Shown piece by piece: positions 14,173 through 58,384 of a stretch of DNA of 64,000 nucleotides. Positions within the stretch are counted from its first letter, which is position 1, and every line of letters starts with the position of its first letter. The DNA is from Cryptosporangium aurantiacum (GTDB lineage: Bacteria > Actinomycetota > Actinomycetes > Mycobacteriales > Cryptosporangiaceae): positions 186,001 through 250,000 of the forward strand of contig NZ_FRCS01000011.1 in assembly GCF_900143005.1 (NCBI RefSeq), given 5' to 3'. Made by a program: the position numbers and the translations under genes. The notes beneath the pieces are model-generated. The model was not told where the DNA came from. It did not search any database and was given only the letters and a program-made list of their open reading frames with translations.

Positions 14173-14218
14173 TGGATGTCCCGCGGCCCGGGTGATCACC
14201 CGGGCCGCGGGACATCCA
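14173..14218. repeat. Perfect 46-bp palindrome in a convergent intergenic gap
   Basis: Two 23-nt arms pair perfectly around the centre 14195/14196, with no loop. The outer ends read TGGATGTCCCGCGG and the centre GGGTGATCACCC. It lies ~240 bp after the MDMPI stop and ~320 bp before the stop of the convergent MFS gene. It may be a bidirectional terminator, a protein-binding site or a palindromic repeat element. Confidence 0.8.
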
Positions 14219-18874: not shown

Positions 18875-18889
18875 CCGCCCCCCACCCCG

Positions 18890-19003
18890 GCGCGGCCGGA
18901 AAATCAGCCGGGCGCGGCCAAGCCCGGTCGGCCGCGCGGCCAAGCCCGGTGGGCCGGGCGCGGCCGGACGATCAGCCCGGCGCGGCCAAGCCCGGTCGGC
19001 CGG
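18890..19003. repeat. Imperfect direct repeats, GC-rich, after the monooxygenase
   Basis: A unit of about 45 bp (CGCGGCCGGA, ATCAGCC, GCGGCCAAGCCCGGTCGGCC) occurs at about 18890-18935 and again at about 18959-19003. An extra copy of the GCGGCCAAGCCCGGT half lies near 18936. The stretch 18875-19026 holds no gene. Confidence 0.7.
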
Positions 19004-19026
19004 GCGCGGCCCGAGGGCCGGCCGAG

Positions 19027-39569: not shown

Positions 39570-39602
39570 TCCTATTACGCTACTCACGGTAGCGTAATAG
39601 GA
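39570..39602. promoter_or_regulatory. TetR operator upstream of the ABC operon
   Basis: Arms TCCTATTACGCTAC (39570-39583) and GTAGCGTAATAGGA (39589-39602) are perfect reverse complements with a 5-nt spacer, 9 bp upstream of the small ORF and 16 bp before the TetR start. It is the strongest operator of its kind in the window. Confidence 0.88.
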
Positions 39603-39618
39603 AAGATAGCCTATCGGC

Positions 39619-40176
39619 GTGCAGGCATCCACTCCCTCCGTCAGCGCCGGGCGTCCTCGCTCGGACCTGCACGCGACCGTTTTCGCCGCGACGCTGCGGA
39701 CCGTGCACGAACTCGGTTACGCGGGCGCGACGATGGACCGGATCGCGGTCGCGGCGCAGGTGGCCAAGACGACGCTCTACCGGCGCTGGCCGTCGAAGGG
39801 CGCGCTGATCGTGGACTGTCTTCTCGACGCGTTCGGCCCGGTACCCGTCGAGGGCACCAGCCGGGCGGAGATCGTCGCGACGGCGATCCGCTGGAGCGCG
39901 GCCAAGATCGCGCAGCCCGGCGTGGGCGCGGCGTTCGCGGGTGTGTTCAGCGACGGCGTGAGCGACCCCGCGCTGCGCGAGATCCTGTCCACCCGGCTGC
40001 AGGACCCCTACCGGCTGGTGCTCCAGGAGACTCTGGACGAGCCGGAGCGCCGGGTGCTGTTCCTCATCGACGTCGTCACCGGGACCCTGCTCCACCGGAT
40101 GGGAATGACCGGCCGGCCGATGGACGACGAGGACGTCGACGCGCTGGTCGAAATGGTCCTGCGCGTGTTCCCCTGA
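39619..40176 (+). CDS. TetR-family regulator of the ABC operon
   Basis: Seen: 185 residues from GTG. The HTH is residues ~25-60 (ATMDRIAVAAQVAKTTLYRRWPSKGALIVD split as usual), with a compact TetR_C_16-like C-terminal domain ending in MVLRVFP. Known: a ligand-released repressor. It is divergent from the small ORF/ABC operon and overlaps the same promoter region with the 33-bp operator. Inference: it senses the transported compound and autoregulates. A GC-rich palindrome and repeat element follow the stop. Confidence 0.9.
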   Translation: MQASTPSVSAGRPRSDLHATVFAATLRTVHELGYAGATMDRIAVAAQVAKTTLYRRWPSKGALIVDCLLDAFGPVPVEGTSRAEIVATAIRWSAAKIAQPGVGAAFAGVFSDGVSDPALREILSTRLQDPYRLVLQETLDEPERRVLFLIDVVTGTLLHRMGMTGRPMDDEDVDALVEMVLRVFP

Positions 40177-40204: not shown

Positions 40205-40232
40205 CGGCGGGCCGCCGCGCGGCGGCCCGCCG
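40205..40232. terminator. Perfect GC palindrome, likely bidirectional terminator
   Basis: A 28-nt perfect palindrome (arms starting CGGCGGGCCGCCGC) 29 bp after the TetR stop and 74 bp before the convergent CoA-transferase stop. It adjoins the intergenic repeat copy that begins at 40232. Confidence 0.65.
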
Positions 40233-40290
40233 GATGACGCGTTCTGGGGCTGTAACAGGTGCTGAGAGACCGGATTCGCGTGCTTCGGCG
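40232..40290 (+). repeat. Intergenic 59-nt repeat, copy A
   Basis: This 59-nt stretch begins GGATGACGCGTTCTGG and ends TTCGCGTGCTTCGGCG. It matches 56818-56876 at 49 of 59 positions with no gaps (TAACAGGT and TTCGCGTGC identical). Both copies lie in convergent gaps directly after a GC palindrome. The hairpin of copy B (GGCCTCTAA/TTAGAGGCC) is only partly conserved here. Confidence 0.75.
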
Positions 40291-40305
40291 TCGAGTTGGA
40301 AGCGC

Positions 40306-40932
40306 TCAGGCCAGTGAGGGCTCGGTCTTGGCGCGGACCTCGTCCTCGGTGACGCCGGGCGCGGTCTCGACCAGCCGCAACCCGTCCGGGGTGACGTCCA
40401 GGACCGCGAGGTCGGTGATGATCCGGTGGACGACGCCGCGACCGGTGTACGGCAGCGAGCACTCGTCCACGATCTTGTACGAGCCGTCGCGAGCCACGTG
40501 CTCCATCAGCACGATCACCCGCCGGGCGCCGTGGACGAGGTCCATCGCGCCGCCCATGCCCTTGACCATCTTGCCGGGGATCATCCAGTTCGCCAGGTCA
40601 CCGGCCGCCGACACCTGCATCGCGCCGAGGATCGCGACGTCGATCTTCCCGCCGCGGATCATGCCGAACGACGTCGCGGAGTCGAAGTACGACGCCCCGC
40701 GCCGCACGGTGACGGTCTCCTTGCCCGCGTTGATCAGGTCCGGGTCGACGTCGTTCTCCTCCGGGTACGCGCCGACCCCGAGGACGCCGTTCTCGCTGTG
40801 CAGCACCAGTTCGACGTCGTCCGGAACGTAGTTCGGGACCAGCGTCGGCAGGCCGATGCCGAGGTTCACGTACGACCCGTCAGTCAGCTCCACGGCCGCC
40901 CTGGCGGCCATCTCCTGCCGTGACCAGCCCAT
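40306..40932 (-). CDS. 3-oxoacid CoA-transferase, subunit B
   Basis: Seen: 208 residues from ATG at 40932. The catalytic motif is in the [10 protein letters not shown] block (Glu nucleophile in [11 protein letters not shown]), followed by [20 protein letters not shown] and [20 protein letters not shown]. Known: with subunit A it transfers CoA from succinyl-CoA to acetoacetate (ScoB) or 3-oxoadipate (PcaJ); sequence alone does not choose. The IclR partner and the nearby box pathway, which ends at beta-ketoadipyl-CoA, favour aromatic catabolism. The start overlaps the subunit A stop by 1 bp (TAATG). The longer ORF to 41289 is rejected. Confidence 0.9.
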
Positions 40933-56109: not shown

Positions 56110-56769
56110 ATGGACGACCCGGGCCTGCTGATCGACCGCAACCCACTGCCCGACGACCTCGACGAACGGCTCCGGCAGCAGCTGACGTTCATCGCGGAGG
56201 TCGACCGGCTCAAGACGATCCTGCGCGCCTCACCGCTCGCGGCGGCCGAGCGGCGCGAGAATGACGCCGAGCACTCGTGGCACCTCGCGCTCATGGTGAT
56301 GCTGCTGTCCGAGTACGCCGACGAGCCGATCGACGTCGGCCACGCGATGCGGCTCGTCGTCGTGCACGATCTGGTGGAAATTTACGCGGGCGACAGCCCG
56401 GTGTTCGACGCTGCTGCCGTCGTCGACCAGCGGGAACGCGAGGAGGCCGCGGCCGACCGGCTGTTCGCATTGCTGCCGGACGACCAGGCGACGTACGTCC
56501 GGGCGCTGTGGGACGAGTTCGAGGCCGCGAAGACACCCGAGGCGCGGTTCTGCAAGGCGATGGACCGGCTCGAGCCGATGCTGCTCAACTGGCTCGACCG
56601 GGGCGGCACGTGGCAGATGCCCGGTGCGACCGAAGCCGCGGTGCGGGCCAGGGAGGCCGGTGTCGTCGCCGCGTCGACGACGCTGGGCGCGGCGACGAAC
56701 CGGCTGGTCGAGGAGGGGCTACGGCGAGGCTGGATCCGCTCCGACCGCCCCACCCGAAGCCCCGCCTGA
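56110..56769 (+). CDS. HD-domain hydrolase (YfbR/HDDC2-like, 5'-nucleotidase-type)
   Basis: Seen: 219 residues from ATG at 56110 (GTG at 56101 also in frame). The HD motif has H55 in NDAEHSWH, H86-D87 in VVVHDLVEIYAGD, with E90 and D95, and a later acidic LRLEPMLLN-like helix (DRLEPMLLNWLD). Known: YfbR/HDDC2 hydrolyses deoxynucleoside 5'-monophosphates using a divalent metal in the cytoplasm. Length is normal. The gene stands alone after the GH2/MFS operon. Its 3' flank carries copy B of the intergenic repeat. Confidence 0.87.
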   Translation: MDDPGLLIDRNPLPDDLDERLRQQLTFIAEVDRLKTILRASPLAAAERRENDAEHSWHLALMVMLLSEYADEPIDVGHAMRLVVVHDLVEIYAGDSPVFDAAAVVDQREREEAAADRLFALLPDDQATYVRALWDEFEAAKTPEARFCKAMDRLEPMLLNWLDRGGTWQMPGATEAAVRAREAGVVAASTTLGAATNRLVEEGLRRGWIRSDRPTRSPA

Positions 56770-56817
56770 CCCGCTCCGGGGACGCCCCACCGGTCCGCCG
56801 AGGCCGCGCGGCCCGCT

Positions 56818-56876
56818 GGATGACGGGTTCTGGGCCTCTAACAGGTCCTTAGAGGCCAGTTTCGCGTGCCTCAGCG
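56818..56876 (+). repeat. Intergenic 59-nt repeat, copy B
   Basis: It begins GGATGACGGGTTCTGG and matches 40232-40290 at 49 of 59 positions. It contains a perfect 9-bp hairpin, GGCCTCTAA (56833-56841) and TTAGAGGCC (56849-56857), 7-nt loop. A GGCCGCGCGGCC palindrome directly precedes it. It lies 48 bp after the HD gene stop and 57 bp before the convergent ligase stop. Confidence 0.75.
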
Positions 56877-56932
56877 GCGGGCGTCCGGTGGTGGAGCGCG
56901 CCGCGCTCGTCGTCGGCACCCCAGCGGCCCCA

Positions 56933-58384
56933 TCACGCCTCCCGGGCCGCGACCAGCGCGCCGCGGTTGACCTTCGTCGCCTCGCTCCGCGGGACCGCGT
57001 CGACGATCTCGACCGTCTTCGGCACCTTGTACGCCGCGATGCGGCTCTTGGCGTACGCGATGATCTCTCCCGTCTCCGGGGGTGCGGAGGCGTCGGACGG
57101 TTGGATGATCGCGTGCACCCGGCGCCCCCACTCCGGGTCCCGAAGACCGATGACGACGACGTCAGCGACGCCGGGATGATCGATCAGCGCGGCCTCGACC
57201 TCCGCGGGGTAGACGTTCGCGCCGCCGGTGATGATCATGTCCACCCGCCGGTCCACCAGGTGCAGGTAACCGTCCTCGTCGAGGAACCCGAGGTCACCGG
57301 CGGTCTTGAAGCCGTCGGCGGTCTCCTTGAGCTGCGGCACCGGGCCCAGGTAGTGCGACGACGCCGGAAACGAGGAACGCAGGTAGATCTCGCCGATGGC
57401 GCCCGGGGGTTGCTCGGCGCCGTCGGAGTCCAGGATGCGCACCTCGGTACCGCGGATGCCCCGCCCGACCGTGCCCTGGTGGGTCATCCACTCGTCGCCG
57501 CGGATCGCGGTCAGCCCGAGGCCTTCGGTCATGCCGTAGGCCATGTAGATCTTCTCGGCGCCGACCAGCCCGGCCCAGCGGTGCACCAGCGAGGCCGGCA
57601 TCGGCGCCGCCCCCTGGGTGATCCAGACGAGGCTCGCGAGGTCGGCGGCGTCGATGCCGGGCAGGTCGGCGATCCGCTTGAGCATCGTCGGGGTCGCGGT
57701 GAAGTTCGTGACGCGCAGCCGCTCGATCGCGTCGGCGATCCGCGTCGCGTCGAACTTCTCGCAGACGATCAGCTGGTCACCGGCGAGCAGGTTGTGCAGC
57801 GGCGCGAACCCGTTGGTGTGGTACATCGGCGCCGGGACCAGGATCGTCTGCGGCCGCGGCACCGGACCCCAGGCATCGGCGAGCGGACTGGCGAGCAGCG
57901 GGCTGTAGTAGCCGGGCCGGTCGCTGACGATCACCTTGGGCGTACCGGTCGAGCCACTGCTGCAGATGCCGTTGAGCTGCGGCGAGACGACGTCGGGCAG
58001 GTCCGGCGCGGGGCCGGGCGTCGAGAGCCAGGACAGATCGTCCGGTCCGAGGTAGAGCCGGGGCGCGATCACCTCCCGGAGCCGTTCCAACTCCCAGTCC
58101 GGCACGTCCCAGCGCACCGGCACCGGTACCGCGCCGAGCTTCCAGGCGGCGAGCACGCTCAGCACGAACTCCGGCGAGTTGCGCAACCCGATGCCCAGCC
58201 GGTCGCCGTGCGCGAGCCCGCGGTCGGCGAACGCGCCGGCGAGCCGCGAGGAGCGGTCGTGCAGCTCGGGCCAGGTGAACGTCGGCTCGCTGCCGTCGAG
58301 GCACAGCACCCGTAAGGCGGTTCCGGACGGCCGCTCCGCGGCCAACGACGCGATCCGGCGGGCGATGCTGATCTCAACGCTCAA
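56933..58384 (-). CDS. Acyl/aryl-CoA synthetase (AMP-binding, bile-acid-CoA-ligase-like)
   Basis: Seen: 483 residues from TTG at 58384 (GGAGG 7 bp upstream). The AMP motif is NGICSSGSTGTPKVIVSD near residue 140, then YMAYGMTEGLGLTAIRG near 280, RRVDMIITGGANVYPAEVEA near 375 and a C-terminal Lys (EATKVNRGALVAAREA). It is shorter than many ligases (~520). Known: activates a carboxylic acid as its CoA ester. It overlaps the LivF-type ATPase stop by 11 bp and ends the operon of the branched-chain-type importer. Inference: it activates the imported acid, possibly a bile acid-like or aromatic acid. Confidence 0.87.
   Translation of the reverse strand: MSVEISIARRIASLAAERPSGTALRVLCLDGSEPTFTWPELHDRSSRLAGAFADRGLAHGDRLGIGLRNSPEFVLSVLAAWKLGAVPVPVRWDVPDWELERLREVIAPRLYLGPDDLSWLSTPGPAPDLPDVVSPQLNGICSSGSTGTPKVIVSDRPGYYSPLLASPLADAWGPVPRPQTILVPAPMYHTNGFAPLHNLLAGDQLIVCEKFDATRIADAIERLRVTNFTATPTMLKRIADLPGIDAADLASLVWITQGAAPMPASLVHRWAGLVGAEKIYMAYGMTEGLGLTAIRGDEWMTHQGTVGRGIRGTEVRILDSDGAEQPPGAIGEIYLRSSFPASSHYLGPVPQLKETADGFKTAGDLGFLDEDGYLHLVDRRVDMIITGGANVYPAEVEAALIDHPGVADVVVIGLRDPEWGRRVHAIIQPSDASAPPETGEIIAYAKSRIAAYKVPKTVEIVDAVPRSEATKVNRGALVAAREA

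Follow-up and report, generated by a model that had tools for sequence, protein, structure and literature searches.

Copies A and B, two similar stretches of the window (the whole 64,000-nucleotide stretch of Cryptosporangium aurantiacum DNA that was analysed), are members of a large genome-wide family of dozens of gene-end palindromes and not an isolated pair. Here the intact palindromes are called class I, and an asymmetric offshoot that holds A and B is called class II. Going by sequence, we somewhat favour the reading that A and B are class II copies within this family and that the class I palindromes would be bidirectional terminators or 3′-end hairpins.

Terminators are usually taken to be mutually independent in sequence, whereas dozens of gene-end palindromes share their spelling here. 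Congeneric species spell theirs differently, and some of their palindromes lie at gene junctions where this genome has one too. Whether a genome homogenises its gene ends, and by which agent, would become testable in a lineage that gave no match to PF01797, the known REP transposase family. We describe the family as REP-like, terminator-like gene-end palindromes with species dialects.

Copies A and B and their genes

The two copies are identical at 49 of 59 ungapped positions (40232-40290 and 56818-56876), as a preliminary description of this DNA had reported, and the repeat is not due to chance. Over 59 ungapped nt, the two gaps that hold them reach 50 matches at best, and the maximum in 2000 dinucleotide shuffles of both gaps is 37 of 59. 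The likeness extends past the 59 nt to about 83 nt at 80% (40211-40293 and 56797-56879). The sub-sequences TAACAGGT and TTCGCGTGC, given earlier as identical, are by sight common to both copies.

The hairpin said to be perfect in copy B only is indeed so. Its 9-bp inner stem, GGCCTCTAA/TTAGAGGCC, is perfect in B and not in A. The 35-nt core of B folds at -14.4 kcal/mol (z -2.6) and that of A at -5.1 kcal/mol (z +1.05), the latter no better than shuffles.

Two models delimit the copies. R1, a sequence-only model from an alignment of eight copies with A and B in its training set, matches A at 40224..40298 and B at 56810..56883, both on the + strand. R2, a structure model built from class I alone with no class II copy, matches them independently, A at 40230-40288 (36.4 bits, E 4.3e-7) and B at 56816-56874 (44.2 bits, E 3.9e-9).

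Genes converge on both gaps, which are 129 and 163 nt long, and the gene calls and Pfam agree with the setting described before. Genes were called by codon usage, with a check of the calls by eye and against five Pfam matches. A TetR-type regulator (TetR_N and TetR_C_11; 39619..40176, + strand) stops 47 nt before copy A; its start is that of the ORF, and the codon-usage caller puts it at 39703. A CoA-transferase subunit (CoA_trans; 40306..40893, - strand) ends 7 nt past this copy. Around copy B, an HD-domain protein (HD_3; 56110..56769, + strand) ends 40 nt before it and an AMP-binding ligase (AMP-binding; 56933..58384, - strand) ends 49 nt past it.

The GC palindrome claimed to precede each copy holds well at A, where a strong GC-rich hairpin lies directly upstream (40206..40231; fold -27.7 kcal/mol, z -2.76), but less so at B, where the palindrome GGCCGCGCGGCC (56802..56813) is by sight only 12 nt long. 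The former is possibly the end hairpin of the TetR gene. A perfect 14-bp palindrome, TCCTATTACGCTAC/GTAGCGTAATAGGA (39570-39602), lies in the divergent gap upstream of the same gene and is possibly its operator.

Other repeats lie elsewhere in the window. A perfect 21-bp palindrome, TGGATGTCCCGCGGCCCGGGTGATCACCCGGGCCGCGGGACATCCA, occupies a convergent gap at 14173-14218 and is unrelated to the family in sequence. Imperfect GC-rich direct repeats, CCGGGCGCGGCC...GGCCAAGCCCGGTCGGCC, are found past a gene end at 18886-19006.

The family and its intact palindromes

With copy B as query, a BLAST-type search against the own genome (G000; 9.58 Mb in 44 contigs) gave several further copies. R1 yielded at least 134 matches at E<=10, forming 84 loci, with 150 of 3760 candidates scored, and at least 59 loci at E<=0.001. 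The preliminary description had thought of a dispersed element and had also allowed for only two copies; the 59 loci uphold the former and make the latter false. Candidates were scored only in part also in the R2 searches and in the permissive R1 searches of relatives, so the copy numbers are lower bounds throughout.

We examined 79 loci, the eight training copies and 71 others, after removing the five weakest of the 84 (E 0.63 to 2.9). The weakest of the 79 are probably chance matches, and two lie inside genes. Most R1 loci besides class II are class I. Plasmid and phage collections contained no match to a class II copy plus its flanks. A scan of named genomes with the exact class I core returned three matches, all in Bacteroidota, that look like chance, the own or very near genomes being possibly left out of that scan.

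Class I is a near-perfect palindrome with the consensus TGACGCGAAACCGGSCTCTAA-N7-TTAGAGSCCGGTTTCGCGTCA, arms of about 20 bp and a 7-nt spacer in nearly every copy. An arm of at least 15 bp is present in 55 of the 79 loci, 51 of which were kept and 50 aligned (L127 left out). The arms of the 51 loci are 16-32 bp long, mismatches included. The 43-nt cores of two class I loci, L118 and L128, fold at -36 to -38 kcal/mol.

The stems co-vary. In the 50 aligned copies, which were chosen partly for having a paired arm, the co-variation is 0.210, where shuffles give 0.114+-0.010 and slid registers 0.081 at most, and 19 of 27 pairs are changed on both sides, against 14.0 in shuffles. A control set of 49 loci was taken by the sequence-only model with pairing ignored, 14 of 63 loci having been set aside for a gapped match. 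In this set 85% of the cells are paired, at least 15 of 20 pairs form in 41 loci, and the co-variation is 0.217, against 0.098+-0.010 in 300 shuffles (highest 0.126) and at most 0.079 in slides.

The family sits at gene 3′ ends. Of the 74 loci outside genes with two flanking genes, 44 are in convergent gaps, 29 in tandem and 1 in divergent ones. Background gaps are convergent in only 14 of 179 (odds 17, p 1.4e-17), these being gaps of at least 40 nt from the window and the fetched loci, while the element gaps had no size limit and 3 of 74 are shorter. The distance to the nearest gene 3′ end, counted from the border of the R1 match and given a minus sign where match and gene end overlap, has a median of 8 nt and is at most 50 nt in 65 of 73 loci. 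The tandem cases are closer to the 3′ than to the 5′ neighbour in 24 of 29. The terminator-linked motif suggested earlier is borne out by this position, and the genome-wide plot against gene ends proposed along with it gives many loci at 3′ ends.

A stable GC-rich hairpin after the stop codon is found at class I, is missing at copy A and is intermediate at copy B. The class I T-run comprises 3 T only and lies inside the long stem (GTTTC by sight). A consensus terminator scan for at least five T in eight after a stem found none at A, B, L118 or L128, and because the latter two are intact class I loci, it lowers our confidence in the terminator reading. Rfam gave 0 matches above the gathering score in the window, and two tRNAs only at 10 family or congener loci.

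The terminator reading is favoured by the position, stability, co-variation and two-way symmetry; the short T-run and the negative scans speak against it. Read on either strand, the GC-rich hairpin is preceded by GAAAC and followed by GTTTC, which would allow one element to serve two converging genes. Specifically, the two-way 3′-end hairpin would consist of the inner stem CGGSCTCTAA/TTAGAGSCCG and, on both strands, the GTTTC after it.

Bidirectional intrinsic terminators of convergent genes likewise place one hairpin between two converging ends. Ordinary ones differ in sequence from place to place in a genome, whereas the family copies are alike and have a short T-run. A terminator would need pairing, and the likeness among copies exceeds that need, so a second process appears to act, be it copying, gene conversion or selection by a sequence-reading factor.

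The nearly fixed 7-nt spacer and the strong base identity of class I would also suit recognition, as binding sites or cruciforms, by a DNA-binding protein, be it one that organises the chromosome or another. Such a protein would co-evolve with the sequence species by species. The dialects described below could then mirror changes in the binding protein. However, the location tracks gene 3′ ends and a dyad of about 45 bp is long for a protein site, and we regard this explanation as improbable.

Class II as an asymmetric offshoot

Class II has the sequence CGGATGACGSGTTCTCGGGCTGTAACAGGTGCTTAGAGGCCGGTTTCGCGTGCTTCGGCG and eight strong copies (L061-L068), namely A, B and six others, while L069, L076, L085, L088 and L039 are partial or diverged. 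In the class I register, all eight are mispaired at three adjacent pairs and one outer pair, and seven of them at two further pairs, with no compensating change at any mispaired position. The left GAAAC has become GTTCTC in most copies, and the short T-run is left on one strand only. The earlier view that sequence is conserved more than the stem thus stands for class II, with its broken pairs common to the copies, but not for the whole family, whose stems co-vary.

R2 recovers all eight strong class II copies (E 2.9e-11 to 0.024) and did not find the partial copy L076. Since this model without class II copies still finds A and B, they derive from the palindromes or share an ancestor with them. 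Class II is probably a decaying or one-sided derivative, and the direction would then be from class I to class II. With the left A-run lost in most copies and two further inner pairs broken, it would form a weak hairpin at best, would work on one strand at most and would have a weaker function. It may be decaying or may be kept for its own sequence.

Some class II copies (L034, L037, L044) share about 40 nt more upstream, and the shared stretch reaches about 115 nt including flanks. This speaks for the copying of a longer unit, and class II has probably been dispersed as a unit of about 60-115 nt. A megablast comparison of eight class II loci found no long DNA in common, so a single larger repeat of which they would merely be pieces does not account for them.

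Class II or class II-like copies lie less than 1 kb from contig ends at C5:626987 (of 627630), C11:964 and C8:411416 (of 411653). Three such copies look above chance for 44 contigs; no long repeat common to them was found. By sight, a further long palindrome, TGCAACAAAGTGTGGTCTGG.../...CCAGACCACACTTTGTTGCA, lies just upstream of the class II copy at L032, close to the end of contig C5.

Stretches of up to about 115 nt shared with flanks are what copied units show, as would be expected of a selfish, REP-like palindrome that multiplies by copying, persists best immediately past gene ends and affects transcription only incidentally. The REPs of the GTAG and CGTC super-families are extragenic multi-copy palindromes, with some families species-specific (Di Nocera et al. 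2013, PMC3733652, in the sections consulted). As described there, REPs resemble the present family in being extragenic, in having many copies and in lying at 3′ ends of convergent and unidirectional ORFs, and those of the CGTC type seem to be without a transposase. The canonical T-run not being found at A, B, L118 and L128 also fits this origin.

The differences are nonetheless several. The family arms of 16-32 bp are longer than the REP stems of about 6-13 bp given in the consulted sections, the spacer is nearly fixed at 7 nt, and there are dialects at shared congener positions. Class I has no unpaired GTAG or CGTC tag; its CGTC is paired with GACG (columns 7-10 with 51-54), and 39 to 48 of the 50 copies have standard pairs there. 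The REP transposase family PF01797, to which the search among mobilising enzymes was confined, had 0 matches at E<=0.1 in the own genome, the control being positive in 8 of 14 genomes. Moreover, the shared congener positions and the compensating stem changes point to maintenance. A selfish REP-like origin is rather unlikely in our estimate, though it gained a little after the negative terminator scans.

Dialects in related species

At E<=0.01, R1 finds the family in 2 of 61 genomes, the own one and the congener G003. In G001-G004, none of the 20 best R1 matches with loci under permissive filters is class II, and the top ones are G003 palindromes of class I. The doubt raised beforehand, that relatives might lack conserved copies, hence holds for class II among these 20 inspected matches but fails for the palindrome family.

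R2 gives, as lower bounds, 141 matches in the own genome, 64 in G003 and 43 in G001, and none in the congener G002 or the family member G004. Related palindromes are present in two of three congeners, mostly in their own dialect. The consensus spelling is tnACGCCgAATCgGcCTCCACG in G003 and GACGggaaAtCGGgg, a looser one, in G001. A class-wide R2 search with strict filters and few candidates scored per genome found the own genome and G211 out of 394; the single G211 locus is a gene-end palindrome with the outer ACGCGAAA/TTTCGCGT in common.

Some gene junctions keep a palindrome across species. In 10 of 35 R2 loci in G003 and 2 of 26 in G001, the genes on both sides are orthologues of the two that flank a host copy; the random expectation is about 0.3 of 35 by a rough estimate (79 of an assumed ~8700 gaps). 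Six of the ten shared G003 gaps contain a clear G003-dialect copy. The others are host-like (L177), poor in dialect fit (L277 and L279) or without a clean arm (L281).

Starting from the genes of eight class I loci, the dialect palindrome was seen in 3 of 20 congener gaps and another element, type X, in 5 of 20, the rest having other hairpins or none. In this survey, ten gaps were tried and 24 of 31 matches were examined, the other seven being weak. To call a gap orthologous, the best match of a single flanking gene sufficed, whatever its neighbour.

Standing at an orthologous position does not make two copies more similar than cross-species pairs in general. The mean identity is 0.67 in 11 orthologous G003-G000 pairs and 0.65 in all cross-species pairs, and 0.52 for shuffled-arm palindromes. 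The within-genome identities of 0.73 and 0.77 exceed that of the orthologous pairs in 9 of 11 pairs, a modest result (Wilcoxon p 0.024), and the excess is absent in the other two. Both of the two pairs found by gene alone show the within-species excess (0.59 and 0.53).

Being built from the host dialect, R2 favours host-like congener copies, which should weaken the contrast between species. The identity test dropped 15 congener loci without a clean arm of at least 15 bp (2 of 35 in G003 and 13 of 26 in G001), and the pair L281/L119 was lost. As the loci dropped for want of a clean arm were mostly of G001, the results for this species are weaker.

In the favoured reading, copying or gene conversion would keep the copies alike within each species and so lead to the species dialects. 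More broadly, we tentatively raise a genus-wide concerted evolution, possible though not probable, in which many gaps keep a palindrome and each species re-spells its copies by a homogenising process such as gene conversion, copying with no known transposase or a co-evolving factor that reads the sequence. Class II would then have escaped pairing and would now be dispersed for its sequence alone.

The family's dialects and its inverted pairs at gene ends recall one more case, the DNA-uptake-type sequences that form terminators as inverted pairs in Neisseria and Pasteurellaceae (Kingsford et al. 2007, PMC1852404, in the sections consulted). Both are species-typical inverted repeats with an A-run and a T-run on the two sides. 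Unlike those sequences, which amount to roughly 1000-2000 copies in the sections consulted, the family has 60-80 loci and no large excess of single half-sites. The 12-base half CCGGTTTCGCGT occurs in 42 copies, 40 of them within family loci, as counted for one exact 12-mer (reversed control 0) and compared with the loci by eye. This count largely refutes the uptake reading, which we consider extremely improbable.

REP repeats and uptake-sequence terminators are the closest systems, and as portrayed in the consulted sections neither fits fully. A literature search by title, with a coverage lying mostly outside subscription journals, found no description of the palindrome family.

Type X is a second gene-end element of the genus, a long imperfect stem, GGGCGGCCCGCYCAG...CTGGGCGGGCTCC, of 100-180 nt. 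Its loci (L218, L225, L226, L228 and L233) are in gaps matched to those of L130, L137 and L144, where the host carries class I. At the L144 gap, type X is present in all three congeners.
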